Origin: Flavipsychrobacter sp.
Lineage (GTDB): Bacteria > Bacteroidota > Bacteroidia > Chitinophagales > Chitinophagaceae
Reading direction: 5' to 3'
DNA: 64,000 nt
Assembly: GCA_031292525.1 (NCBI GenBank)
Contig: JARLGY010000050.1
Coordinates: 186,001 to 250,000, forward strand
A model generated the notes under the pieces. The model saw nothing but the letters and a program-made list of their open reading frames with translations, was not told where the DNA came from and did not search any database. Shown piece by piece: positions 16,831 through 30,632 of this stretch (positions are counted from its first letter, which is position 1; each line of letters begins with the position of its first letter). A program made the position numbers and the translations under genes.

Positions 16831-17506
16831 AAATTGGTTTTAAAACTTAATACCAGTTAATATTTTCCAATCTAGTTGTATATCTATATGGTATATATGA
16901 CACGCTGTTCGTGTTGAATATTAATTGATAGGACGATAGAGATGCATGCCTGCCGTCAGCTGAAATCCAACAAACGCTAATAATAGGATTTTATTATTAA
17001 TGACAGGCAGGCATTAATAATACCAAATATTAGACGCTAATCGGCTAGCTAACAAAATGCATGCAAACACAAAAATGGTTTCAAACATTATAGTCTGAAA
17101 CCCTTACCTGCAGATGCTATCCCCCTATATTACATGTAATTTCAGACAGCCTATATCTACTAAATAACATGATCTGTACTGAACTTTGGTAACATTTCAT
17201 TATTCAGCGCATATTTACTGAAATATTGAGTAACTTCTATGTTTCAATTCAGTCTGGAATTTGCTGTTTTACCAATACCGTATCATTTCCATCAGTACAT
17301 ATAACTATGCCTTATAACCGGCATATTTTACCAATTGCCACACCTGGAACTCATGACCTTTGAGCCGTTTCTGATAAGACACAACAATATCGTGAACCAG
17401 TGACAACATAGTTAATTACAAGTAGGAGTGCACTACTTCGCGGCCGTTCGCTCAGAGAATTGTGAATCAGACAAAAAGTGCTTAAGAAGTGATTTTACAA
17501 TCAAAT
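16831..17506. other. Long intergenic stretch before the sulfur locus
   Basis: About 680 bases with no convincing gene on either strand. It contains one long imperfect hairpin (16946-17014, listed separately) and a repeated octamer ACGCTAAT at 16973 and 17034. The remainder is AT-rich and I see nothing further. A consensus promoter for the sulfur locus starts at its right end. Confidence 0.6.
16946..17014. repeat. 69-base imperfect hairpin, REP/MITE-like
   Basis: The arms ATGCCTGCCGTCA and TGACAGGCAGGCAT pair over 13 bases with one bulged base. An inner AT-rich pair (TAATAATA with TATTATTA) lies near the centre. There is no T run, so it is not a typical terminator. It may be a REP-like or miniature mobile element, or a structured RNA. 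Confidence 0.5.
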
Positions 17507-17536
17507 TTGTTTTTTTAAAAAGAAGACCTAAGTTTG
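17507..17536 (+). promoter_or_regulatory. Bacteroidota consensus promoter of the sulfur locus
   Basis: TTG (17507-17509), a 19-base spacer, then TAAGTTTG (17529-17536) match the phylum's -33/-7 consensus (TTG, TAnnTTTG). Transcription should start about 17541, just before the SAM riboswitch. Confidence 0.8.
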
Positions 17537-17554
17537 CATCAGTTCTTTACAAAT

Positions 17555-17664
17555 ACTTATCAAGATAGGCAGAGGGATATGGCCCAATGAAGCCTTAGCA
17601 ACCCATTTGGTAAAACAGATACGGTGCTAACTCCATCTTAACACATGTGTTAGGATAGATAAGT
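17555..17664 (+). promoter_or_regulatory. SAM-I (S-box) riboswitch aptamer
   Basis: The aptamer is recognisable from the S-box core: AGAGGGATATGGCCCAATGA, then AGCCTTAGCAACCC, and a third arm containing GGTGCTAACTCC. The P1 helix is ACTTATC (17555-17561) with GATAAGT (17658-17664). It binds S-adenosylmethionine in this class and usually shuts off expression when SAM is high. A promoter stands just upstream and a terminator 40 bases downstream. The regulated genes would be the first poly-Cys peptide, the porin and the ABC importer. Confidence 0.9.
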
Positions 17665-17703
17665 CAGATGCAACAGTTATAAAATCATTTTAGATAACGT
17701 ATG

Positions 17704-17732
17704 CCTTTCTGACTATATCAGGAAGGTTTTTT
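17704..17732 (+). terminator. Riboswitch expression-platform terminator
   Basis: Stem CCTTTCTGA with TCAGGAAGG (5-base loop) is followed by TTTTTTATTTT. The 5' arm element TCTGA (17708-17712) can pair instead with TCAGA (17664-17668), which touches the 3' side of P1. This gives the alternative antiterminator expected of a SAM-off switch. Confidence 0.85.
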
Positions 17733-17796: not shown

Positions 17797-17904
17797 ATGA
17801 GCAAGGTAATTTCATCTGCCGCCAATGCATTTCAGTCTATAGTTACTAACTATGCTGCATGCCCTTGCTTGTGTTGTCCTCAGGCCTGCTGTTGTTGTAA
17901 CTAA
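17797..17904 (+). CDS. 35-residue poly-cysteine peptide 1, candidate Cys-sensing leader
   Basis: An ATG frame of 35 codons sits 64 bases after the riboswitch terminator. Its first half is ordinary (MSKVISSAANAFQSIV) and its end is YAACPCLCCPQACCCCN: eight cysteines at residues 22, 24, 26, 27 and 31-34. The last four Cys codons (TGC TGT TGT TGT) lie in the 5' arm of a hairpin that spans the stop codon. Poly-Cys leader peptides are known in mycobacteria as cysteine-responsive attenuators, and the setting here (sulfur assimilation) fits. A stand-alone metal- or thiol-binding peptide is the alternative. A second 35-codon peptide of the same design precedes cysH. Confidence 0.75.
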   Translation: MSKVISSAANAFQSIVTNYAACPCLCCPQACCCCN

Positions 17905-17912
17905 TCAACAGC
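17888..17912 (+). promoter_or_regulatory. Hairpin overlapping the Cys codons of leader 1
   Basis: GCTGTTG (17888-17894, inside the final Cys codons) pairs with CAACAGC (17906-17912) across the stop codon. A T6 run follows 11 bases later (17924-17929), further away than in a standard terminator. Ribosomes held at the Cys codons would prevent this stem. The next about 295 bases up to the porin start hold no other gene I can support, only a small GAGCA/TGCTC stem. Confidence 0.55.
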
Positions 17913-18207
17913 CCACATTTATCTTTTTTGTTTAATGGCACTCAATTACAGAGCATAATATAGCCTGTGCTCATTTCTCAAAGGATATCTCAATCAATCT
18001 CCATTTTCAAATTTCATGCATTGAGCATTGCTGCTTCTCGCGCATAAGCGATTAAGCTTGCCTGCCAGATGCTAAATATTTAATACTGTGATCATAATCT
18101 CAGCCCATTCTTTTAGTGGCATCAGTAAAGGTGGCATTGCATCGTGTTAGTACTGTTCATTCTTATCGTCTGAATAACAATTAATGATTACTACTAACAC
18201 ATACATA

Positions 18208-19467
18208 ATGCACACTAAAAGATACATATATACGATAGCCTTAGCAGGCATAGGCTTTAATTTCCTTGCAATGTCGGTGGCAGCACAAAGCACACCTGCA
18301 ATTTTTAAAAGTGCACCAGATACTGCATCCGGAGATGGTTTTAAACCACATGGCGAAATATGGGGCCAGGTTTTTGGCGATTATTATTATAAGGCCCACT
18401 CTGATACTGTAGGTGGCGGAAGGGGCGGTTCTAATCAATATACAGGTATTCCTCAAAATAAAAATGCTTTCCAGTTTCGCAGAATATACCTGGGTTATAA
18501 TTACACCTTTAGCAAACGCTTCTCTACAGAATTCCTGCTTTCATCTGAAGATGATTTTGCATCGGGAGATTTGTTGCAGGACGGCAAAATAGCTCCATAC
18601 ATAAAATGGGCCAACATACGCTGGAAAGAAATATACCCAGGAGCAGATCTGGTGATCGGGCAAATGTCAACACCCTCTTTTTCTCTACTTACGGATAAGG
18701 TGTGGAGCTATAGGTCTGTAGAGCGTACTGTTGCTGATATCAGAAGAACGCCTTCTTACGACTTTGGCGCTGCGATCCAGGGTAAGTTCGTTCCGGGTAA
18801 CGACAATTTTGGATACAACCTTATGGTTGGTAACGGGCAAACTGCAAAGCCTGAAAACGATAGCTACAAATGGTTTTATGGTGATGTGTATGGACTGTTC
18901 TTCAACAGGCATATAATAATTGATCTCTATGCTGACTATGAGCGGTTGAACTGGACCCCAACATGGCACCATGACAGGCACATGTTAAAAGGGTTTATTG
19001 CATACAATGCACCAAAGATCACCGCAGGGGTTGAGGCTTTTGTTAATACTATACATGCAGATGATGTTGCCACGAGAAGACAGGACGGGAAATCAGATAC
19101 ACTTACCAACAGCGCAACTGCTGTATCGCTGTACATAAGGGGCAGTATCTATAAAAAGGAACTATCATTTTTTGCACGTTACGATGTTTACAATCCCGCA
19201 GGCAATATAGACAATAGTAAGTACAGCAAGTACACCCCACTCACTACCAACTATGATCCCAATACAAAGGAACAGTTTGTAAGCGCGGGGCTTGACTGGG
19301 CGCCATTACGCAACGTGCATATAATGCCCAACGTTTGGTACAATACCTATAGCAATGCAGGGCCTAAAAACTACGGTACTGCCAATAATGATTATGACCT
19401 GGTTTACAGGCTAACGTTCACTTACATATTTGGCGCGTCACCTGCAAGATTCAATGAATTTCAATAA
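18208..19467 (+). CDS. Outer-membrane porin of the sulfur locus
   Basis: A 419-residue beta-barrel protein started at ATG 18208 (MHTKRYIYTIALAG), with a signal peptide ending near SVAAQS. Many amphipathic strands ending in aromatic residues (FQFRRIYLGYNYTFSKRFSTEFLLSSED, LSFFARYDVYNP, YDLVYRLTFTYIFG) indicate an outer-membrane barrel similar to phosphate-selective porin O/P-type proteins. It lies between the S-box and an ABC importer gene, 31 bases before the latter, so it probably admits the importer's substrate, which I infer to be sulfate. Confidence 0.75.
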   Translation: MHTKRYIYTIALAGIGFNFLAMSVAAQSTPAIFKSAPDTASGDGFKPHGEIWGQVFGDYYYKAHSDTVGGGRGGSNQYTGIPQNKNAFQFRRIYLGYNYTFSKRFSTEFLLSSEDDFASGDLLQDGKIAPYIKWANIRWKEIYPGADLVIGQMSTPSFSLLTDKVWSYRSVERTVADIRRTPSYDFGAAIQGKFVPGNDNFGYNLMVGNGQTAKPENDSYKWFYGDVYGLFFNRHIIIDLYADYERLNWTPTWHHDRHMLKGFIAYNAPKITAGVEAFVNTIHADDVATRRQDGKSDTLTNSATAVSLYIRGSIYKKELSFFARYDVYNPAGNIDNSKYSKYTPLTTNYDPNTKEQFVSAGLDWAPLRNVHIMPNVWYNTYSNAGPKNYGTANNDYDLVYRLTFTYIFGASPARFNEFQ

Positions 19468-19498: not shown

Positions 19499-20443
19499 AT
19501 GGAATACTTCAATTTTATCCGGACTATAACTCTGATTGCAGGCATTCTTTTATTGAATGCTTGCGGTTCAGACACGAACAAGAACAGGCTGAATATCACA
19601 GGTGCTTTTGCCTTATATCCGCTTGCCATCAAATGGTCTGATGTCTATAAAAAAACACATCCGAATATCAGATTCGATATTTCAGGAGGGGGTGCAGGTA
19701 AGGGGTTGACAGATGTGCTTGCCAGCGCTGCTGATATAGGTATGTTTTCCCGCGATCTTACACCAGAGGAGAAAGCAAAAGGGATATGGAGCATAGCAGT
19801 AGCCATAGATGCTGTTATTCCTACTGTAAGCACTCAGAACCCGTCGCTCAATGCACTTCTTGAAAGTGGGCTTTCTCAAGAACAATTTAAAACCATATTT
19901 CTGTCTGGAGCCCAGATTACGTGGGGCAGCCAGCTTGGAACAGCAGATAGTAGTAAGATAAACGTATATACCCGTTCTGATGCAGCCGGTGCTGCTGATA
20001 CCTGGGCAAAATACCTCGGCAGTAAACAAGAGCGCATAAAAGGTATAGGTATATATGGTGACCCAGGCCTGGCAGATGCTCTTGCAAAGGATCCACAGGG
20101 CATTGGCTTCAATAATGTTGCCTATATCTATGATGCTAAAACAGGGCATAAATATCCTGGTGTAGAGGTGGTGCCAATTGATATCAATGGTAATCATAAA
20201 ATAGATACCGATGAAAATTTCTATAAAAACTCAGATGCTATACTCAATGCTATTGCAAAAGGGAAATACCCTGCACCACCTGCCCGGGAGTTGTATTTTA
20301 TCTCTAATGGCAAACCTGTAGATCCTGAAGTTATTGCTTTCATGAAATGGATATTAACAGATGGACAGGCGTTTGTAAAAGAAGCTGGATTTGTGCCTCT
20401 TGAACCCAATAAAATAGCAGAGCAACTTTCTAAACTGAACTAA
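19499..20443 (+). CDS. Pst-type substrate-binding lipoprotein, candidate sulfate binder
   Basis: A 314-residue lipoprotein started at ATG 19499 (MEYFNFIRTITLIAG), with lipobox LLNAC. It belongs to the phosphate-binding PstS-like periplasmic family: ITGAFALYPLAIKW at the start, FDISGGGAGKGLTDVL, ADIGMFSRDLTPEE and YTRSDAAGAADTWAKYLG. In PstS proteins the last motif normally reads GSGT, whose Ser and Thr contact phosphate; here it is AAGA. Both hydroxyls are thus missing, which suggests another ligand. Its place in a SAM-regulated sulfate assimilation locus points to sulfate or a related oxyanion. An upstream start at 19430 overlaps the porin and lacks a signal peptide. Confidence 0.8.
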   Translation: MEYFNFIRTITLIAGILLLNACGSDTNKNRLNITGAFALYPLAIKWSDVYKKTHPNIRFDISGGGAGKGLTDVLASAADIGMFSRDLTPEEKAKGIWSIAVAIDAVIPTVSTQNPSLNALLESGLSQEQFKTIFLSGAQITWGSQLGTADSSKINVYTRSDAAGAADTWAKYLGSKQERIKGIGIYGDPGLADALAKDPQGIGFNNVAYIYDAKTGHKYPGVEVVPIDINGNHKIDTDENFYKNSDAILNAIAKGKYPAPPARELYFISNGKPVDPEVIAFMKWILTDGQAFVKEAGFVPLEPNKIAEQLSKLN

Positions 20444-20444
20444 A

Positions 20445-21344
20445 ATGATAGAATACCTGCATTTACGTAGGAGGCTAATTGATCGTATTTCCAGTATATG
20501 GATTGTGCTGTCCGTGATGTTACTACTCTTATTACCATTAGCTATAGGATTGGGGTTAGCCATCGAATCCCTTCCTATAGTTAAAGCCTTTCCGCTGAGA
20601 GCGTTATTGACTTCGTCAGACTGGTCTCCAATGGAAGGGAAGTTCGGATTCTACACATTCATTATCAGCTCTGTCTGGGTTACTGCAATAGCTTTTGTCT
20701 TGTCGGCTCCTGTCTGCATCTTGTCTGCTATTTACCTTACACAATATGCACATGCCAGGGTACTGTATATAATGAACCTGATCATTGATGTAATGGCTGG
20801 TATCCCATCAGTAGTATATGGTGTTGGTGGTGTTCTTGTTGTTGTACCATTTATCAAGGACAACTTGGCGCCACTGTTTAATATTAACTCATCAGGGTAT
20901 TCTGTTCTTGCAGGAGGCATAGTGCTGGCTATTATGAGCATACCGTATATGCTGAATATGCTGATAGATATATTTAAGGGGATGTCGTTGGAAATAAAAG
21001 AGGCTTCTCTTTCACTTGGTGCGAATGTTTGGCAAACAGTAAAATTTGTGCTGATCAGGAAAGGATCTTCAGGTATTGTTGCCGCATTAGGTTTAGGTAT
21101 CTCAAAATCACTTGGCGAGACTATTGCGGTTTTGATGGTGGTGGGTAATGTGGCCAGGATACCCCAAAATATGTTTCAGCCGGGATACCCTTTACCTGCC
21201 CTTCTGGCCAATAATTATGGCGACATGATGTCGATACCTGTGTATGAAGCTGCTTTGATGTTTGCTGCTTTAATTCTCTTTTTGATCATCATGTTATTCA
21301 ATGTATTTACCAATATCCTCATCTACAAGCAAACTAAAGAATAA
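20445..21344 (+). CDS. PstC-like ABC permease of the sulfur locus
   Basis: A 299-residue inner-membrane permease with about six helices. The conserved cytoplasmic EAA loop is in KEASLSLGANVWQTVKFVLI, followed by LGLGISKSLGETIAVLMVVGN as in PstC. It begins one base after the binding-protein stop, and its own stop overlaps the next ATG, so it belongs to a tight operon. No phoU gene is present, unlike in most phosphate systems. Confidence 0.85.
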   Translation: MIEYLHLRRRLIDRISSIWIVLSVMLLLLLPLAIGLGLAIESLPIVKAFPLRALLTSSDWSPMEGKFGFYTFIISSVWVTAIAFVLSAPVCILSAIYLTQYAHARVLYIMNLIIDVMAGIPSVVYGVGGVLVVVPFIKDNLAPLFNINSSGYSVLAGGIVLAIMSIPYMLNMLIDIFKGMSLEIKEASLSLGANVWQTVKFVLIRKGSSGIVAALGLGISKSLGETIAVLMVVGNVARIPQNMFQPGYPLPALLANNYGDMMSIPVYEAALMFAALILFLIIMLFNVFTNILIYKQTKE

Positions 21345-22192
21345 TGAAAAAAAGAAGTATTGAAGAACAGTTTTTTTTATGGTTGATGCGGTTTACGACT
21401 GCCAGTATCATTATGGTTTTATCGGGCTTGTTATTTGTGATTTTCAAGAAAGGTTATCACGCCATGTCATGGGCCATGATCTCTGAGGAACCCCAAGGTG
21501 GTTTTTACCTGGGGGCAGGGGGAGGCATTTTAAATGCAATTCTGGGTTCTGTATATCTTTCTGTTGGGGCTATTATTCTTGCCATACTTGTAGGCTTGCC
21601 AGTGGCATTGGCGATGAATGTACACATGGTCAGGTACAAAATATGGGTTACTGTCATCCGGTTTTTGCTGGATACATTATGGGGGGTTCCCTCTATTGTA
21701 TATGGCGCATTTGCCTTCGGCATAATGGTCTATTTTCACTTAAGAGCTTCGTTGCTAGCAGGCATCATTACAGTGGCTTTGCTTATAGTGCCTATCATTA
21801 CCAGGGCTTTTGACGAAGCATTAAGAACGATTCCTAACGGCCTACTTGAAACAACTTATGCAATTGGAGGTACACGCTCTGAAGCATCATTTGTTATTTT
21901 TTTCAGGCAAGCGCTCCCTGGTCTTATTACAGCCGTACTGCTGGCATTGTGCAGGGGTATTGGTGATGCAGCATCTGTGCTTTTTACTGCAGGCTATACA
22001 GACCATGTACCACAAAGATTAACAGACCCAACGGCAACATTGCCATTAGCCATATTTTTTCAACTTAGCTCTCCTATACCGGAAGTGAAAGAAAGAGCCT
22101 ACGCAGCAACATTAGTATTAACGATCATCATTCTTGTTATTAGTATACTGTCGCGTATAGCAGGCAGACGATTTAAAAAATACGTTTTATAA
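21344..22192 (+). CDS. PstA-like ABC permease of the sulfur locus
   Basis: The second permease, 282 residues, with about six helices. It resembles PstA, with ITRAFDEALRTIPNGLLETTYAIGGTRSEASFVIFF forming the EAA loop region (described in pieces: EALRTIPNGLLE, GGTRSEASFVIFF) and ALCRGIGDAASVLFTAGYTD after it. The ATG overlaps the preceding stop by one base. It forms the heterodimeric channel with the PstC-like protein. Confidence 0.85.
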   Translation: MKKRSIEEQFFLWLMRFTTASIIMVLSGLLFVIFKKGYHAMSWAMISEEPQGGFYLGAGGGILNAILGSVYLSVGAIILAILVGLPVALAMNVHMVRYKIWVTVIRFLLDTLWGVPSIVYGAFAFGIMVYFHLRASLLAGIITVALLIVPIITRAFDEALRTIPNGLLETTYAIGGTRSEASFVIFFRQALPGLITAVLLALCRGIGDAASVLFTAGYTDHVPQRLTDPTATLPLAIFFQLSSPIPEVKERAYAATLVLTIIILVISILSRIAGRRFKKYVL

Positions 22193-22201
22193 GTACCGAT
22201 C

Positions 22202-22960
22202 ATGTCAAACTCAGCAATTGTCCGTATTAAGGATTTGAACGTACAAAGTGGTAATACTGCCATTTTAAAGAACATTAATGTAGAGATACCGCGCAATAAG
22301 ATAACTGTTATTCTTGGGCCGTCAGGTTGCGGAAAAACAACATTATTAAAAAGCCTGAACCGTCTTACAGATCTGCAGCCGCACTTAAAGATATCAGGCA
22401 GTATTTTCATTGATGATGAAGATATTTTGCAGGTAACTGATGGGCTGACGAGGATAAGACAAAAAATGGGGTTGCTTTCTCAAAAGCCATATCCACTTCC
22501 CATGTCTATTTACAAGAATATCGCTTTTGGGTTGAAGATACAAGGTGTATCAGACAAAAAGATCATTAATGATAGTGTGGAACGCTACCTTGCTGAGGTG
22601 GGCCTTTGGGACGAGGTAAAAGATAGATTACACAGCCCTGCGTCGCGATTGTCTATTGGCCAGCAACAAAGGCTCTGTTTGGCCAGGGGGCTTGCCGTAC
22701 ACCCTGAGATCATCCTGGCTGATGAACCAACATCTGCACTTGATCCTATATCGAGTAAAAAGATCGAGGAAAAATTCATTGCATTAAGAGATGATTTTAC
22801 CGTCATCGTTGTAACTCATATTTTAAGACAGGCTAAACGCCTGGCAGACAATGTGATCTTTATGTACTACGGCGAAATAGTAGAGCAGGGGCCTCCTGAG
22901 CAACTATTTGAGCATCCAGTATCTCCGATTCTAAAAGACTATTTAAACACCGGTCATTGA
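22202..22960 (+). CDS. PstB-like ABC transporter ATPase of the sulfur locus
   Basis: A 252-residue ABC ATPase with Walker A GPSGCGKTT (about residues 39-47), signature LSIGQQQRLCLARGLA, Walker B IILADEPTSALDP, and the H-loop in VIVVTHILRQAKRLADNV. The overall form, including HPVSPILKDYL near the end, matches PstB. It powers the two permeases upstream and ends the first part of the locus; a new promoter begins 90 bases further on. Confidence 0.9.
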   Translation: MSNSAIVRIKDLNVQSGNTAILKNINVEIPRNKITVILGPSGCGKTTLLKSLNRLTDLQPHLKISGSIFIDDEDILQVTDGLTRIRQKMGLLSQKPYPLPMSIYKNIAFGLKIQGVSDKKIINDSVERYLAEVGLWDEVKDRLHSPASRLSIGQQQRLCLARGLAVHPEIILADEPTSALDPISSKKIEEKFIALRDDFTVIVVTHILRQAKRLADNVIFMYYGEIVEQGPPEQLFEHPVSPILKDYLNTGH

Positions 22961-23050: not shown

Positions 23051-23081
23051 TTGGATTTGAAAATAAGTCCATCTACTTTTG
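23051..23081 (+). promoter_or_regulatory. Promoter of the cysH operon
   Basis: TTG (23051-23053), a 20-base spacer and TACTTTTG (23074-23081) match the Bacteroidota consensus. The predicted start near 23086 precedes the second poly-Cys peptide. It also argues that the peptide starts at 23137, not at the in-frame ATG at 23017. Confidence 0.65.
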
Positions 23082-23136: not shown

Positions 23137-23244
23137 ATGAAACAGTTAACATCACTCGCCACTGCCATTCAAAATGCCAGCATATCTTCTGCCGCATTTA
23201 TGGTTGCGTGTTGTTGTTTCATTTGTTGCAGCTGTTGTATCTAA
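23137..23244 (+). CDS. 35-residue poly-cysteine peptide 2, candidate Cys-sensing leader
   Basis: A 35-codon frame (start MKQLTSLATAIQNAS) ends in FMVACCCFICCSCCI, with seven cysteines at residues 25-27, 30, 31, 33 and 34. It has exactly the same length as the peptide at 17797, and both place the cysteines in the last 14 residues, one residue before the stop. It lies 117 bases before cysH on a transcript with its own promoter. Several hairpins start within its last Cys codons. Leader-peptide attenuation by charged tRNA-Cys is the simplest reading; a secreted or metal-binding peptide is less likely. Confidence 0.75.
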   Translation: MKQLTSLATAIQNASISSAAFMVACCCFICCSCCI

Positions 23245-23319
23245 CAACAAGGTTCACCTTTACATTCTTATTTCTTGTTAGTAAGGTAAACCAGCAATGG
23301 ACAGCCATAGTTCTGTCCA
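23233..23319 (+). promoter_or_regulatory. Hairpin series after leader 2, candidate attenuator
   Basis: Three stems follow in order. The first is TGTTGT with ACAACA (23233-23249), overlapping the last Cys codons. The second is a longer stem of about 23251-23293, formed by GGTT/AACC and ACCTTTAC/GTAAGGT. The third is TGGACAG with CTGTCCA (23298-23319), trailed by a T-rich stretch ending in TTTTTT at 23336-23341. AACAAG after the stop could also pair with CTTGTT in the second stem, giving mutually exclusive folds. No perfect terminator is seen. Confidence 0.5.
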
Positions 23320-23361
23320 CTCTTTAATCATTCCCTTTTTTAACGTATTTAATTACAGATC

Positions 23362-24078
23362 ATGCCACATGCTTCTGAAGCTGCAATTGCGCAATTGTTG
23401 GACGAATTGCGCAATCTCACAATTGATGAGTCACTAAAAAAACTTGCAAAAGATTATAGCGGCTCAGTAACCTTCTCTACCAGTTTTAGTTTGGAAGATC
23501 AGGTCATCACCCATTTGATCGCACAAAGTGGTGCGGATATCAGCCTGTTTACATTAGATACAGGTAGATTATTTGAACAGACCTATGCGGTATGGGAAAA
23601 TACAAATGCCCACTTTGACATCAAACTCAAAGGCTACTATCCTGATAACATACAGGTAGAAAAATTCCTGGATGAAAAGGGACCCAATGCGTTCTATTCT
23701 TCTGTTGATAACCGGAAAGAATGCTGTTACATCAGGAAAGTAGTACCACTTAAACGGGCATTGAACGGCAAACAGATCTGGGTCACAGGACTTAGGGCAG
23801 AACATTCTGTATCGCGTGAAGGTCTTGAGCTGTTAGAATGGGATGAAGGTAATCAGCTCATCAAGTACAATCCATTGCTGCATTGGTCAACAGATGAAGT
23901 GAAAGCCTACATGGCCAGGTTTCAGATACCTTATAACACCCTGCATGATAAAGGCTTTGTAAGCATTGGGTGCGAGCCTTGTACTAGAGCTATCAGAGAC
24001 GGTGAAAGTTTTCGTGCCGGGCGGTGGTGGTGGGAAGATAATAGTAAAAAAGAGTGTGGATTACATATTAAGCAATAA
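23362..24078 (+). CDS. cysH: Assimilatory adenylyl-sulfate (APS) reductase
   Basis: This enzyme reduces activated sulfate to sulfite with thiol electrons. The 238-residue protein has the PAPS/APS reductase fold (SFSLEDQVITHLI, LDTGRLFEQTY). It also has the paired cysteines CC near residue 119 and CEPC near residue 203, which bind the 4Fe-4S cluster that marks the APS-using type. The catalytic cysteine is in KKECGLH at the C-terminus. This fits the absence of an APS kinase (cysC) gene in the operon. cysD follows 21 bases later. Confidence 0.92.
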   Translation: MPHASEAAIAQLLDELRNLTIDESLKKLAKDYSGSVTFSTSFSLEDQVITHLIAQSGADISLFTLDTGRLFEQTYAVWENTNAHFDIKLKGYYPDNIQVEKFLDEKGPNAFYSSVDNRKECCYIRKVVPLKRALNGKQIWVTGLRAEHSVSREGLELLEWDEGNQLIKYNPLLHWSTDEVKAYMARFQIPYNTLHDKGFVSIGCEPCTRAIRDGESFRAGRWWWEDNSKKECGLHIKQ

Positions 24079-24099: not shown

Positions 24100-25008
24100 A
24101 TGAGCAATAAAAGAATTGACCATTTAGACCTGTTGGAATCAGAAGCTATTTATATACTGAGAGAAGTGGCTGGACAGTTTGAGAAACCAGCTTTGCTGTT
24201 CAGTGGTGGTAAAGATTCAATAGTATTGGTACACCTGGCATTAAAAGCATTCAGGCCCGGTAAATTTCCTTTCCCATTGGTGCATATAGACACAGGGCAC
24301 AACTTTCAGGAAGCGCTTGATTATAGGGATGAACTTGTAGCGGCGATTGGAGAAAAGTTGATAGTGAGGAAAGTAGAGGATACAATAGTTGCAAAGAACC
24401 TTACAGAACCACGGGGTAAGTTTGCCAGCCGCAATGCATTACAAACTTACACGTTGCTGGATACGATTAATGAATTTCGTTTTGATGCGTGCATAGGTGG
24501 TGCACGAAGGGATGAAGAAAAGGCAAGAGCCAAAGAACGCGTCTTTTCTATAAGGGATGAATTTGGCCAGTGGAATCCTAAACTGCAACGCCCGGAACTA
24601 TGGAATAATTACAATGGAAAGATCCATAAAGGAGAAAACGTGCGTGTATTTCCCATCAGTAACTGGACCGAACTGGATGTGTGGAACTACATAAAAAGAG
24701 AAGGAATAAAACTGCCGTCCATTTATTTTTCCCACGAACGCGATGTTATTGAATACGATCAGCAGCTTGTTGCATTGTCGCCATTTATCAGGCTGGATAA
24801 AGAAGATGTAGTCTTTAAATGCAAAGTAAGGTACCGAACGGTAGGGGATATGACCTGTACAGCAGCAATTGCTTCAGAAGCCTTCTCTATAGACGATATA
24901 ATAGAAGAGATCATCTCAAGTAATACAAGTGAACGTGGGGAGACAAGGATAGATGATAAAGTATCTGAAGCCGCAATGGAAGACAGGAAAAAGAATGGTT
25001 ATTTCTAA
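24100..25008 (+). CDS. cysD: Sulfate adenylyltransferase subunit 2
   Basis: The catalytic subunit of ATP sulfurylase, 302 residues. It forms APS from sulfate and ATP together with CysN. Visible parts are the PP-loop FSGGKDSIVLVHLALKAF, HIDTGHNFQEALDYRDE, CIGGARRDEEKARAKER, and the conserved NWTELDVWNYI. It ends 19 bases before cysN. Confidence 0.95.
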   Translation: MSNKRIDHLDLLESEAIYILREVAGQFEKPALLFSGGKDSIVLVHLALKAFRPGKFPFPLVHIDTGHNFQEALDYRDELVAAIGEKLIVRKVEDTIVAKNLTEPRGKFASRNALQTYTLLDTINEFRFDACIGGARRDEEKARAKERVFSIRDEFGQWNPKLQRPELWNNYNGKIHKGENVRVFPISNWTELDVWNYIKREGIKLPSIYFSHERDVIEYDQQLVALSPFIRLDKEDVVFKCKVRYRTVGDMTCTAAIASEAFSIDDIIEEIISSNTSERGETRIDDKVSEAAMEDRKKNGYF

Positions 25009-25027
25009 CAAACAAAAAAACATTATA

Positions 25028-26269
25028 ATGGACATACTTCGTTTTATTACCGCAGGCAGTGTTGACGACGGTAAAAGTACCCTGATAGGCAGATTGCTAT
25101 ACGACAGCAAGAGTATATTGATAGATCAGTTGAGATCTATAGAGAAGGCAAGTAATAAAGCAAATGGGGAAATAGACCTTGCATTGTTAACCGATGGCTT
25201 AAGGGCCGAGCGTGAGCAGGGTATTACTATTGATGTGGCATATAAATATTTCAGCACACCCCGAAGGAAATTTATAATAGCAGATGCGCCGGGCCATATT
25301 CAATATACCAGGAACATGGTGACAGGGGCATCCAATTCAGACCTTATTATTATACTTATTGATGCCAGGCATGGGGTAGTAGAGCAAACAAGGAGACACT
25401 CTATTATTGCTTCGTTGCTGGATGTTGCTCATGTTGTTGTAGCTGTCAATAAAATGGACCTTGTAAACTATGACGAAACAGTTTTTGATATAATTGTAAA
25501 TGACTATAAAGAAGTTGCTGCTTCATTAGGCCTTAATGAAGTAACCTATATACCCATAGCAGCTATCACAGGCGATAATATTACTGAACACAGTACGAAA
25601 CTAGATTGGTATAATGGGGAACCTTTATTGGCATTTCTGGAGCAGGTAAATATTAAAAGAAGTACAGAAAATAATAAAGCAAGACTATATGTACAGTATG
25701 TAATACGCCCTCAAGCACCGGGCTACCATGATTATCGCGGTTATGCTGGCCGAATTACAGGTGGCAGTCTTCATGTTGGCGATCATGTTATCTCATTGCC
25801 ATCTGGTATATCAACAACAATCAGCGCTATCGAATCAGGAGGCAACGCAATAGATGAAGCTCATACAGGGCAGAGCATAACCATTCAATTAGCAGATGAC
25901 ATTGACATTAGCAGAGGCGATGTGATTGTGAAAAAATCTGATCTGCAACCAATAGTTTCACAAGACCTGGAAGCTTTATTATGCTGGATGGATACGAGAC
26001 CACTGCTGCCAGGCAACCGATATTTATTACAACTCAACAGCCTTACTGTACCGGCTATTGTGAAGCATATCGGGTACAAGGTAGACGTAAATACAATTGA
26101 TAAAACGCATAACCCTGCTACTGCTGAGCTAAATGATATAGTAAGTGTTACACTAAAAACGGCATCGCCTGTTCCGTATGATAAATATACAGTACTGCAT
26201 ACAGGCGGTGGCGCCATACTCATTGATGAAACAAGCTATGCTACAGTTGCTGCAGCCATTTTACAATAA
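25028..26269 (+). CDS. cysN: Sulfate adenylyltransferase subunit 1 (GTPase)
   Basis: The regulatory GTPase subunit of ATP sulfurylase. Started at ATG 25028 (MDILRFITAGSVDDGK) it has 413 residues, somewhat shorter than the about 475 of enterobacterial CysN. GTPase motifs are GSVDDGKST, DAPGH and NKMD; switch I lies around EREQGITIDVAY. The C-terminus has EF-Tu-like beta barrels (YRGYAGRITGGSLHVGD). A longer frame upstream overlaps cysD and is rejected. No CysC domain is fused. Confidence 0.94.
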   Translation: MDILRFITAGSVDDGKSTLIGRLLYDSKSILIDQLRSIEKASNKANGEIDLALLTDGLRAEREQGITIDVAYKYFSTPRRKFIIADAPGHIQYTRNMVTGASNSDLIIILIDARHGVVEQTRRHSIIASLLDVAHVVVAVNKMDLVNYDETVFDIIVNDYKEVAASLGLNEVTYIPIAAITGDNITEHSTKLDWYNGEPLLAFLEQVNIKRSTENNKARLYVQYVIRPQAPGYHDYRGYAGRITGGSLHVGDHVISLPSGISTTISAIESGGNAIDEAHTGQSITIQLADDIDISRGDVIVKKSDLQPIVSQDLEALLCWMDTRPLLPGNRYLLQLNSLTVPAIVKHIGYKVDVNTIDKTHNPATAELNDIVSVTLKTASPVPYDKYTVLHTGGGAILIDETSYATVAAAILQ

Positions 26270-26288
26270 CAGATAAAATAATTTAAAA

Positions 26289-27122
26289 ATGAACGAATCA
26301 GATTTGCTGCAAACATTGTTTCAAAGAAACTATAGCAGTACCCAGAACTTTCCTGATAAAGAGTTGGCCGAAGAATACATTGATAAGCTGTTCAACTTCC
26401 TGTTTACAGCAAAAGAGCATAGGTATGATTCTAAGGAGCAACTTGTGAATGAGTATGATAATCTTAAAACTACTTTATCAAATATTGTTTACGACATATT
26501 GCGTAATGATGCGGAAGTAGAAGGGATTATTGAACACTTTTTTCTTTCCATTCCGCATATCTACAACACACTGCTAAAAGACGCAACTGCTATAGTAGCA
26601 TTCGATCCTGCTGCAGGCTCCCTGGAAGAAGTACTTCTTGCATATCCTGGGTTTTATGCTACTGCTGTATATCGGCTTGCTCATAAACTCTATAAACTAA
26701 AACTAAATACGCTCAGTAGGATATGGTCTGAATTTGCACATAGCAAAACAGGTATAGACATCCATCCCGGTGCAATAATTGGTGAATCTTTTTTTATAGA
26801 TCACGGCACAGGTATTGTTATAGGGGAGACCACCTTTATTGGTAACAACGTGAAAATATACCAGGGGGTAACATTAGGCGCCTTAAATGTTATAAAGAAT
26901 GCTTCAACTACTAAGCGGCATCCCACCATTGAAAACAATGTGATCATCTATTCAGGCGCTACAATATTAGGCGGCACCACAAGAATAGGACATGACAGTG
27001 TAATAGGGGGTAACGTGTGGCTGACTGAAAGTGTGGAACCTCATTCGGTAGTTTATCACAAAAGTAAAGTGATAGTAAAAGATAAGTATCCATTCCCTGC
27101 ACCATTGAATTTCGTGATATAA
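26289..27122 (+). CDS. cysE: Serine O-acetyltransferase
   Basis: It makes O-acetylserine from serine and acetyl-CoA, the acceptor for sulfide in cysteine synthesis. The 277-residue protein has a helical N-terminal half. A left-handed beta-helix with hexapeptide repeats follows ([58 protein letters not shown]). The catalytic histidine is expected in the IDHGTG segment. The position directly before cysK is typical. Confidence 0.92.
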
Positions 27123-27162
27123 GGTAAAAGATGATTTAATCATTCAATTAAAAAGAAATAAA

Positions 27163-28077
27163 ATGAAAGCACAAACAATTTTAGAAACTATAGGTAATAC
27201 ACCTCATGTCCGTATCAATAATCTCTTTGGGAATGACCATGAGATCTGGATAAAATTAGAAAAGAATAATCCTGGTGCGAGTATTAAAGATCGTATAGCC
27301 TTGGAGATGATAGAGGATGCGGAACGCAAGAGGTTACTCAATAAAGATAGCGTTATCATAGAACCGACATCCGGGAATACAGGTATTGGGCTTGCGCTGG
27401 TAGCAGCTGTAAAAAAATACAAGATCATCCTGGTTATGCCTGAATCGATGAGTGTGGAACGGCGGAAGATCATGACTGCATACGGAGCAACATTTGAATT
27501 GACCCCAAGAGAAGGTGGAATGAAAGCTGCAATTGCAAAAGCATATGAACTGGCACAAAGCATTCCTAATTCCTGGATGCCACAACAATTTGACAATCCT
27601 GCCAATGTTGACGTACACCGTAAAACTACAGCACGGGAAATATTGAATGATTTTCCTGGTGGTATAGATTATCTGGTAACTGGTGTGGGGACAGGTGGTC
27701 ACATTACAGGAGTTGCAGAGATATTGAAAGAACAGTTCCCATCATTAAAAGTATTTGCTGTTGAGCCTACTTTGTCACCAGTGTTGAGTGGTGGTACAGC
27801 AGGGCCACATCCTTTACAAGGTATAGGTGCAGGGTTTGTCCCCAACATATTAAATGTGCACATTTTAGATGGCATCATACAGGTAGAGAAAGAAGAAGCT
27901 TTTAGATATACACAACAAATCGCACTTCAGGAAGGTATCATTGTAGGTATCTCCACCGGGGCTTCATTGGCTGCAATAGCTAAAAAGCTGGCAGACATAC
28001 CCAAAGGTGCAAAGATCCTCACCTTTAACTACGACACAGGTGAAAGATATCTTTCTGTTGAGGGGCTTTATAACTAA
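27163..28077 (+). CDS. cysK: Cysteine synthase A (O-acetylserine sulfhydrylase)
   Basis: A 304-residue PLP enzyme that joins sulfide to O-acetylserine. The PLP lysine lies in [16 protein letters not shown], the substrate loop is [15 protein letters not shown], and the phosphate-binding glycine loop is [36 protein letters not shown] is also characteristic. It follows cysE at 40 bases, so the two cysteine-forming steps are coupled in one operon. Confidence 0.95.
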
Positions 28078-28118
28078 CCAATCACAACTGGAATTGTTTC
28101 AGGTAAAAGAAAATAACA

Positions 28119-28928
28119 ATGTACACAGGCAAAGTAATTATAGTGGGTGCTGGTCCGGGTGACCCGGAACTGATAACGCATAAGGCAGTAAAATACCTGC
28201 AACAGGCAGATGTGGTACTGACAGACCGGCTGGTAAGCAGGGAACTGTTGGATGAATACGTGAATCTGGAGGCAGAAATAATATATGTAGGTAAGGAAGC
28301 TGGTTCTGCCCGTTCTACGCCGCAGAGAAAGATCAATGATCTTTTGGTAGAACATTACTACCAGGATAAATTGGTGGTGCGGTTAAAAGGGGGGGATGTT
28401 TCTATATTCTCCAATATTCTCGACGAGCTGGAAACATTGCAGGAGCACAAGATACCCTACGAAATTATTCCAGGTATAACTGCTGCTTCAGGCGCTGCTG
28501 CATATTCTGGTATCCCACTCACTGCAAGAGGTTATGCTGATTCGGCACGGTATTTAACCTGCTATAAATCAGAATACAAGCCGGAAAATTATTGGAGAGA
28601 ACTGGCAAAAACAGATGATACACTTGTCTTTTATATGTCGGGAGAAAACATTGACACACTTGTGTTCAATCTGATTCGCCACAATATTTCAGCCGATAAG
28701 GCGATCGCGGTAATTACTCAGGCTACTACGCCTTGTCAGCATGTATCCATCTACCAATTTGATGATATAAATACATTAACGAATACTGCTTTTGTTTCAC
28801 CTACTCTTATCATTATTGGTAAGGTTGTGAACCTATACCAGCGGTTTAGCTGGAAGGATAACAGCATAAATTCAGACAGCTATTTCAAATCAGTAGCCAA
28901 CATAAAAAATCGACTTAGTGTATTGTAA
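28119..28928 (+). CDS. cobA: Uroporphyrinogen-III C-methyltransferase
   Basis: It makes precorrin-2, the precursor of the siroheme needed by the sulfite reductase encoded just downstream. The 269-residue protein begins with the SAM-binding motif VGAGPGDPELITHKAVKYL, followed by VLTDRLVSRELLDEY, the loop VVRLKGGDVSIFS, and GITAASGAAAYSGIPLTARG. It supplies the cofactor pathway together with the siroheme synthase four genes later. The symbol sumT is also used. Confidence 0.93.
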   Translation: MYTGKVIIVGAGPGDPELITHKAVKYLQQADVVLTDRLVSRELLDEYVNLEAEIIYVGKEAGSARSTPQRKINDLLVEHYYQDKLVVRLKGGDVSIFSNILDELETLQEHKIPYEIIPGITAASGAAAYSGIPLTARGYADSARYLTCYKSEYKPENYWRELAKTDDTLVFYMSGENIDTLVFNLIRHNISADKAIAVITQATTPCQHVSIYQFDDINTLTNTAFVSPTLIIIGKVVNLYQRFSWKDNSINSDSYFKSVANIKNRLSVL

Positions 28929-28940
28929 TAAATTTTAAAA

Positions 28941-30632
28941 ATGATGTTAGTAAAATCTAAATTAAATGCGTTGACTGCACTGGTAAGTGACGCCACTTAC
29001 TATGAACTGATCTGGATGAATGGGTTCATATCTGGTGCGGTTTCTGTCAATGCATCCCGTCCGGCAGTTGCAGCAGCATCGGTAAAAATAGACAAGATCA
29101 CAATTGTTTATGGTACAGAATCGGGCAACTCAAAAAAGTTAGCCACAGGTTTCGCGACTAAAGTAAAACAGAATGGTATCGCAGTAAATGTTGCATCACT
29201 GGATCAGTACAGGTTAAATGATCTGTCTAATGAAGAGTACTTTCTTGTTGTGATCAGCACACAGGGTGATGGGGAACCACCGGCGACAGCAAAGAAATTC
29301 TACGACCATTTATTTACAAACAAAGTAACACTATCCAATTTAAAATACGGAGTAATTGCTCTGGGAGATAGTGCTTACCCGCTATTTTGCAAAACAGGAG
29401 CAGACATAGATGCCCAGCTACAACAACTTGGGGGCACCCGGATCACTACCTTGCAAAAATGCGATACTAACTATGAACCTATTGCCAATGAATGGTTTGA
29501 ACAAGTATTGTCTGTTTTGAAAAATGGAACTGACGCAGGTTCACGTCCGCAGACGCATGCAGTAAAAAAGGTGGGTAAGGAGACCTATACCGGTACAGTA
29601 GTAACCAATATTAACCTGAATGATAAAGGATCTGAAAAGAAGACCCACCATTTAGAAATTACTGCTGAAGGATTGGTTTACGAGCCAGGAGATTCTATTG
29701 GAATTATTCCTGAAAATCAGCATGAGACTGTAAATGCCATTTTTGAAACAGTTGGTATAAATGCAGATAAACTAATGCAGTACCGTGGTGAGGAAAAATC
29801 TCTATTTGGCCTATTTAAAAACGAGCTAAATATAGTTTACTTGCCTGAACGGATCACAAAGCAATATGGAACTATCATAAATCAGGAAATACCGGAAACT
29901 AACATTGGTCTGTTAGACCTACTGAAAATATATCCTGTTAAAGATGCACAGCAATTTGAGCAGCTAGTTAATGTGTTGACGCCTATAACCCCGAGGTTGT
30001 ACTCTGTTTCATCGTCTTTAAATGCGCATGCTGATGAGGTGCATATAACTGTGTGCCAGGACAAGTTCTATATCAACAGTGAAGAACGATATGGCTTATG
30101 CTCCGGCTACCTGGGTCAGTTATCAGAAAACACACAGTTGAACTTTTATGTGCATAAAAACAATCAGTTCCGCCTGCCCGACTCCGATAAAAATATTATT
30201 ATGATCGGGCCTGGTACTGGCATTGCGCCATTCAGAGCATTTCTCGAGGAGCGTGATGCTACAGGCGCTACAGGTAAAAACTGGCTGTTCTTTGGTAACC
30301 AGCATTTTACTACAGATTTTCTTTACCAGACAGAAATACAAAACTGGTTTTCTACAGGTTTGCTCACAAAAGTGAATACCGCATTTTCAAGAGATTTGCC
30401 TGAAAAAGTGTATGTGCAGCATAAGATGCTTGCAAATGCCGCAGAACTGTACGACTGGATTCATTCCGGGGCATACATCTACATATGTGGCACTAAAGAC
30501 TCCATGAGCATGGATGTTCTGGAAACACTACAACAGATAATAGCACAACAAGGTGGCTACACAGCTGAACAGGCAAAAGCTTACCTGGAGCAATTAGAGG
30601 AAGATGGTAGGTTATTAAAAGATGTGTACTGA
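28941..30632 (+). CDS. cysJ: Sulfite reductase flavoprotein subunit
   Basis: The 563-residue electron-transfer partner of CysI passes electrons from NADPH to the hemoprotein. After a leader of about 50 residues unlike CysJ, the flavodoxin domain starts with TIVYGTESGNSKKLA and includes STQGDGEPPATAKKF. The FAD domain has RLYSVSSSL and the NADP domain has GPGTGIAPFRAFLEER, with TKDSMSMDVLETLQQII and a terminal Tyr-containing KDVY. It lies 12 bases after the methyltransferase stop. Confidence 0.93.
   Translation: MMLVKSKLNALTALVSDATYYELIWMNGFISGAVSVNASRPAVAAASVKIDKITIVYGTESGNSKKLATGFATKVKQNGIAVNVASLDQYRLNDLSNEEYFLVVISTQGDGEPPATAKKFYDHLFTNKVTLSNLKYGVIALGDSAYPLFCKTGADIDAQLQQLGGTRITTLQKCDTNYEPIANEWFEQVLSVLKNGTDAGSRPQTHAVKKVGKETYTGTVVTNINLNDKGSEKKTHHLEITAEGLVYEPGDSIGIIPENQHETVNAIFETVGINADKLMQYRGEEKSLFGLFKNELNIVYLPERITKQYGTIINQEIPETNIGLLDLLKIYPVKDAQQFEQLVNVLTPITPRLYSVSSSLNAHADEVHITVCQDKFYINSEERYGLCSGYLGQLSENTQLNFYVHKNNQFRLPDSDKNIIMIGPGTGIAPFRAFLEERDATGATGKNWLFFGNQHFTTDFLYQTEIQNWFSTGLLTKVNTAFSRDLPEKVYVQHKMLANAAELYDWIHSGAYIYICGTKDSMSMDVLETLQQIIAQQGGYTAEQAKAYLEQLEEDGRLLKDVY

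Follow-up and report, generated by a model that had tools for sequence, protein, structure and literature searches.

A putative cysteine-sensing leader frame behind a SAM riboswitch and its counterparts at sulfate-assimilation operons of Chitinophagaceae

The open reading frame at positions 17797-17904 of the DNA analysed here (the window: 64,000 nucleotides, positions 186001-250000 of contig C19 in a 4.44-Mb genome) appears from its sequence and from its relatives to be a cysteine-sensing leader, one of two in its operon and a member of a large set found at the heads of sulfate-assimilation operons in Chitinophagaceae. We put the probability of this reading at about 0.78. The leader, of a kind found in soil-type Bacteroidota, would probably let the ribosome gauge cysteine supply, with sulfur uptake running only in shortage, and the gene arrangement makes ribosome-based cysteine sensing in series with SAM sensing a well-supported proposal. 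Our working model is as follows: when Cys-tRNA is scarce, the ribosome would stall within the Cys tract, next to the leader stop, switching the downstream genes on; when cysteine is ample, it would finish the leader and depart, and the downstream genes would be off. High SAM would end transcription at the S-box terminator, ahead of the leader, while low SAM would allow the leader and the importer genes behind it to be reached, full expression following only if cysteine were also low. The initial annotation of the frame, which had proposed attenuation by charged tRNA-Cys behind a SAM riboswitch, is partly supported by these results.

Layout of the locus

All features described here lie on the forward strand. 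A putative Bacteroidota-type promoter at 17506-17536 consists of TTTG (17506-17509), a 19-nt spacer and the -7 box TAAGTTTG (17529-17536); the consensus for this type of box is TAnnTTTG (PMC9723704), and the congener retains both boxes. It is followed by a SAM-I (S-box) aptamer at 17554-17665, scoring 82.2 bits against RF00162 (gathering threshold 44.4), and by an expression platform at 17662-17732 in which the antiterminator strand AGTCAGA (17662-17668) is complementary to TCTGACT (17708-17714) within the terminator stem (17704-17726), with a T-run at 17727-17732. The score, the terminator platform and the complementary antiterminator strand place this element in the RF00162 family. The terminator hairpin (17704-17732) folds with a z of -2.30 and was the sole region flagged by our terminator test. 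The genome has two SAM-I riboswitches, of which this is one; the other (L002, G000:C23:39227-39339) is followed by a cystathionine gamma-synthase-like gene and lacks a Cys leader.

Leader 1 begins 131 nt after the aptamer, with the S-box terminator between them, which agrees with the position first assigned to it. It encodes MSKVISSAANAFQSIVTNYAACPCLCCPQACCCCN in 35 codons followed by TAA, and the eight Cys codons originally counted are all present; four are consecutive, as claimed, and the run stands nearly at the end, one Asn codon separating it from the stop. Since no TAnnTTTG box was found in the sequence separating leader 1 from the S-box terminator, transcription apparently gets to leader 1 only by reading through the S-box, and the AND-type control by SAM and cysteine suggested in the initial annotation would be the natural reading of this series order. 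The spacer that follows (17905-18207) is unstructured and has more C than G (G 10-19%, C 17-26%) and no terminator; it is a candidate Rho loading region.

The first gene of the importer operon (18208-19467; the listed ORF starts at an ATG further upstream, 18184) had no Pfam match and is judged to be outer-membrane porin-like from its position and its signal-like N terminus. Behind it are a PstS-like periplasmic binding protein at 19499-20443 (PF12849, with TIGR02136 below cut-off; ORF listed from TTG 19430), which probably binds sulfate or another oxyanion, and the permeases (20445-21344 and 21344-22192) and ATPase (22202-22960) of an ABC importer. The Pst-type importer (19499-22960) thus sits within the sulfate-assimilation operon. 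Given that the genome has another Pst-like permease, on C13 (29% identity), the importer is probably one for sulfate or thiosulfate.

Leader 2 (23137-23244), a poly-Cys frame encoding MKQLTSLATAIQNASISSAAFMVACCCFICCSCCI and of the same 35-codon length as leader 1, lies ahead of cysH behind a promoter box of its own and without a riboswitch. The -7 box TACTTTTG at 23074-23081 would serve as its internal promoter. Two codons of leader 2 differ between the congener and the window, neither of them for Cys. A spacer (23245-23361; C 22%, G 12%) separates it from cysH, encoding (phospho)adenylylsulfate reductase (23362-24078; NF002537 over cut-off), after which come cysD, cysN, cysE, cysK, a uroporphyrinogen methyltransferase-like gene (sumT) and a cysJ-like gene (24100-30632; names from sequences). 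The order of genes in this sulfate-assimilation/cysteine operon is identical in relatives, and all genes downstream of the leaders serve cysteine synthesis or, probably, the uptake of its sulfur source. Leaders 1 and 2 would constitute two cysteine checkpoints within one operon.

Two pattern searches of the same genome gave 147 sites, leader 2 falling outside both patterns. Among the first 60 of the 147, which were the ones examined, those other than leader 1 mostly overlap long frames and were rejected as further leaders. One site, L223 (MCPRLNYDEGLCCC), is located before another promoter box. A plasmid search for leader 1 returned no match.

Frequency and anatomy of the leaders in relatives

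Within the window, frames opening with ATG were counted as leaders if they had 12-45 codons and either CCCC close to the end or seven or more Cys among the last 12 residues; one frame fits, and 10 dinucleotide shuffles of the window gave none. Conservation was examined in the surroundings of cysH (15 kb at most) from 38 same-family genomes and in a second set of 60 further genomes. In 16 of 38 loci of the first set a terminal-Cys-run frame immediately precedes cysH and shares its strand; in the second set such a frame lies just upstream of cysH in 38 of 60. Combined, this amounts to 54/98 same-family cysH loci, compared with 114/5158 background windows (2.2%); the binomial p of about 2e-62 is indicative only, since the genomes are related and the leader counts are therefore not independent events. 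Under a stricter ORF rule the background fell to 0.6%. When a TAnnTTTG box 5-61 nt before the ATG was also demanded, 24 matches were found in 3.79 Mb of strand sequence, and 19 of these stood directly before cysH. Position in the operon matters as well: by the stricter rule a leader was found in 1/17 loci where cysH is internal to an operon and in 50/81 of the others, the length rule having missed at least two further leaders (L033 and L041) beyond those 50.

The leaders are alike in their anatomy. The -7 box lies 19-33 nt before the leader ATG in most (median 26), the peptides are mostly 21-23 residues long (typically about 22 codons) and the spacer to cysH measures 13-136 nt (median 59.5). 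Counting back from the stop, the residues at -1, -2, -3 and -4 are Cys in 80, 74, 85 and 62% of the leaders, respectively, a second Cys cluster falls at -7 to -9, and both codons are used (TGT 222, TGC 99). What we see is the general form of an amino-acid attenuator, namely a short frame rich in the cognate codon that heads the cognate operon and is conserved in relatives. Many leaders (L036, L170, L174, L180 and others) also have a palindrome, TTAGTCTACC-n5-GGTAGAAAAA, upstream of them and beside the promoter box, and in the same set TCCACyA...TrGTrGACTA occurs after the box. The palindrome is probably a repressor or activator site, the operator of a sulfur regulator; the leader 2 promoter in the window has a weak remnant of it only (GTCCATC).

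Three findings count against the Cys-sensor reading. About one third of the cysH loci that appear to head an operon lack a strong Cys run, most Bacteroidota with cysH have no leader, and leader 1, unlike the leaders of cysH, lies some 300 nt from its downstream gene, that for the porin. Several of the cysH loci scored as negative contain weaker Cys leaders, for example MNIRFPIKLCCM and MSTRKMIKPMRCTQPKCC. Beyond the family, MVYPSHIERMRFCCCSPCCCCC stands 77 nt ahead of cysH in Rufibacter ruber. Short frames with CC or CCC also lie 75-101 nt before a sulfite reductase gene in Pedobacter, Mucilaginibacter and Parapedobacter, so a weaker form of the leader is probably present there. In Sphingobacteriaceae, such CC or CCC frames at 75-101 nt from the sulfite reductase gene (NIR_SIR) come straight after a TAnnTTTG box (L092, 3390-3452; L136, 3441-3506; also L119, L126, L128 and L139). 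On the minus strand of the Mucilaginibacter pedocola locus L139 (reverse-complement positions 1291-1365), MYFLSTPTSTKTLQMQCLSACCCC ends at a stop 56 nt before the gene for an 856-residue protein that resembles a TonB-dependent receptor and may be a Cys-controlled importer.

Stacking with the SAM riboswitch

The placing of a poly-Cys leader in series behind a SAM riboswitch, as first described for the window, is borne out by other genera in which SAM aptamer, terminator and leader follow each other in the same order. The series leads to cysH in two genomes of a common genus, g6 (G006, L044; G310, L160), in G266 (L191, genus g2) and in Sediminibacterium sp. Gen4 (L077). With the window genus, at least four genera therefore have the tandem arrangement, and the gap from aptamer to leader ATG in the tandem loci is 103-145 nt. 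In G281 (L205) and G027 (L053) a riboswitch precedes cysH and there is no leader, and most relatives have the leader alone behind its own promoter. The existence of tandem, riboswitch-only and leader-only loci indicates that the two sensors behave as separate modules, which from their distribution would have been joined more than once, or joined early and then lost.

A leader ahead of the importer was seen only in the window genus. We considered leader 1 as a general feature of such importers and rejected this, as orthologous importers in eight relatives have no convincing leader; a candidate in G020, MLFKRAFYCCLCAVC (L211), ends about 300 nt before the next frame and looks like chance.

Alternative explanations and the mode of output

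The least likely alternative, one to which we give very little weight, is that the frame goes untranslated and that its TGY repeats arose by chance in the leader RNA or belong to a DNA element. Genus-level substitutions show no synonymous excess across the whole peptide, as this alternative would have it. The in-frame Cys runs nevertheless end at the stop and use both TGT and TGC, the distance to the promoter box is fixed, such frames are rare in random windows, and in the congener all Cys codons of leader 1 are unchanged while AAC has become AAT and the stop has changed from TAA to TGA. It is also improbable, if not quite to that degree, that the nascent Cys-rich peptide senses copper, zinc or redox state and stalls the ribosome by itself, cysteine supply being irrelevant. 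The Cys content and the two clusters about three residues apart in some tails (-1 to -4 and -7 to -9) fit such a peptide. Metal-binding peptides, however, usually retain a fixed motif, whereas here neither the spacing nor the remainder of the peptide is constrained from genus to genus, pure CCCC or CCCCCC tails occur, and the downstream genes are those of cysteine synthesis. The preferred reading, a sensor of cysteine itself, leaves the question of how stalling is converted into expression, for which three forms of output were weighed.

Attenuation of the trp type, with the stop-spanning hairpin as one arm of a terminator/antiterminator switch, has codons and operon that are cognate in its favor, and the hairpin noted at the outset is indeed predicted (17888-17912; arms 17888-17894 and 17906-17912; -9.4 kcal/mol, z -1.85). 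The T-run is too far from the stem for this hairpin to be a terminator, a reservation the initial annotation had itself raised and with which we agree. A switch through the hairpin, as then proposed, does not hold up: in the sole congener the 20 nt following the leader 1 stop are among the most altered of the region, the 3' arm changing from CAACAGC to CAGCATC and the T-run becoming shorter, while the Cys codons are all kept. Nor was a terminator found in any of 61 leader-to-cysH regions (0.3 expected by chance), where the longest T-runs are mostly of six or fewer; the same test caught the S-box terminator, our positive control. The Cys tract showed no pairing above chance with the spacer or with the cysH start (mean z -0.16 and -0.17). 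We consequently consider hairpin attenuation highly unlikely, about on a par with the metal or redox peptide or slightly below it, and the stop-spanning hairpin to be probably incidental.

A second form of output is translational, the stalled ribosome preventing the RNA from folding over the start site of the downstream gene, as reported for the mycobacterial poly-Cys frames. The short spacers (median 59.5 nt) suit it, and in our modelling stalling a ribosome on the Cys tract made the cysH start cheaper to open by 0.86 kcal/mol, but shuffled spacers gave most of the same release (0.65) and shuffled cysH starts are less open than the real ones. As the basis of such a switch, pairing between Cys tract and downstream start gave no signal (the mean z of -0.17 above) and was rejected. 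More favorable is the leader 5' UTR, which in genera g104 (L170, L173, L174, L180, L183) and g118 (L152, L154, L182, L189, L194) can pair with RNA located at the leader stop or immediately past it; the g104 pairing includes a double change, from ATTGAGTA/TACTCAAT to ACTGAGTA/TACTCAGT in L180. This pairing is not a general mechanism, being found in two genera only with a mean z of -0.27, and may be a local addition there. Taken as a complete account of the locus, a cysteine sensor with translational output seems to us unlikely, though several times more probable than any of the alternatives above.

We lean instead toward Rho. Leader spacers have a C/G ratio of 1.69, compared with 1.11 in leaderless cysH and in control genes, their deficit in G is significant against both (p of 1e-4 and 1e-5, respectively), and they are less structured than shuffles (z +0.82), so that the RNA after the leader stop is C-rich, G-poor and unstructured as in a tnaC-like system. 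These features point to Rho acting on the spacer and to a stalled ribosome holding it off. If the leader is a Cys sensor, its output may then be early termination by Rho in the G-poor spacer, whose first part the stalled ribosome would protect as it does in E. coli tnaC. Stalled at the final Cys codons, a ribosome covers just about 15 nt beyond its A site, and many spacers are 36-60 nt long, which is short for a rut site, so Rho would need part of cysH as well. Because an excess of C over G is weak evidence for Rho and the spacers are short, we hold Rho-dependent output, given a Cys sensor, to somewhat below an even chance, and rank a translational switch next, as doubtful. The broader notion of a Bacteroidota cysteine 'ribulon', in which terminator-less, Rho-dependent poly-Cys attenuators are spread through the family, heading its sulfate-assimilation operons, and are repeatedly placed in series with a SAM riboswitch to give two inputs (SAM and charged tRNA-Cys), is more tentative still.

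Comparison with known systems

There is reported precedent for cysteine-reading leaders in other phyla. Poly-Cys leaderless short ORFs were reportedly tested in mycobacteria by Canestrari et al. in 2020 (Mol Microbiol 114:93), a study referred to in PMC13236596 and PMC9094748. Both those frames and ours are short, carry a Cys run and lie upstream of cysteine or sulfur operons, with several independent copies per genome (at least two in the window genome). The mycobacterial frames are leaderless, whereas the Bacteroidota leaders are not: the -7 box lies a median of 26 nt from the ATG, which in most relatives would put the transcription start some 20 nt ahead of the frame, and leader 1 is preceded by the S-box and 131 nt. 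Sequestration of the start site, the mycobacterial model, left no specific signal in the Bacteroidota leaders, and the two groups belong to different phyla with no evidence of common descent.

Candidate Cys leaders have also been predicted in Mycobacterium, P. acnes and B. longum (Seliverstov et al. 2005, PMC1262725). Like ours, these have Cys runs near the stop, no conserved terminator and possible Rho sites in the spacer; unlike ours, they are from Actinobacteria and a riboswitch in series was not reported. The uORFC-8-2 motif of Rhodobacterales, a structured Cys uORF upstream of cysS (PMC8632094), likewise places tandem Cys codons ahead of a Cys gene. It has structured stems, a terminal U-run, two Cys codons only and cysS rather than sulfate assimilation downstream, whereas our leaders precede cysH or an importer and have no terminator. 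With an ordinary SAM-I riboswitch (RF00162) the locus shares its aptamer and terminator platform, the difference being that a second, ribosome-based sensor follows. With E. coli tnaC the present leaders may share a ribosome that halts where the leader ends and so could keep Rho from a site immediately beyond the stop, but tnaC is an arrest peptide that stalls on tryptophan, whereas the present leaders would stall on uncharged tRNA.

The initial annotation knew of no Bacteroidota precedent, and we too found no description, in the literature searched, of poly-Cys leaders in this phylum or behind an S-box; a transcriptome study of Flavobacterium psychrophilum reports strong indications that leader peptides attenuate amino-acid operons (PMC9723704), and a Cys case may be among them. 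Our findings would extend codon-specific ribosomal sensing of cysteine to a phylum for which we found no report of it, and point to a class of genes of about 22 codons that automatic annotation is likely to overlook. They also offer dozens of natural variants for studying how a terminator-less leader controls an operon, together with naturally occurring cases in which a metabolite riboswitch is placed in series with a leader read by the ribosome. Set against the known Cys leaders, those described here would appear to share the sensing principle and to differ in their anatomy, in a new phylum and in a two-input arrangement.
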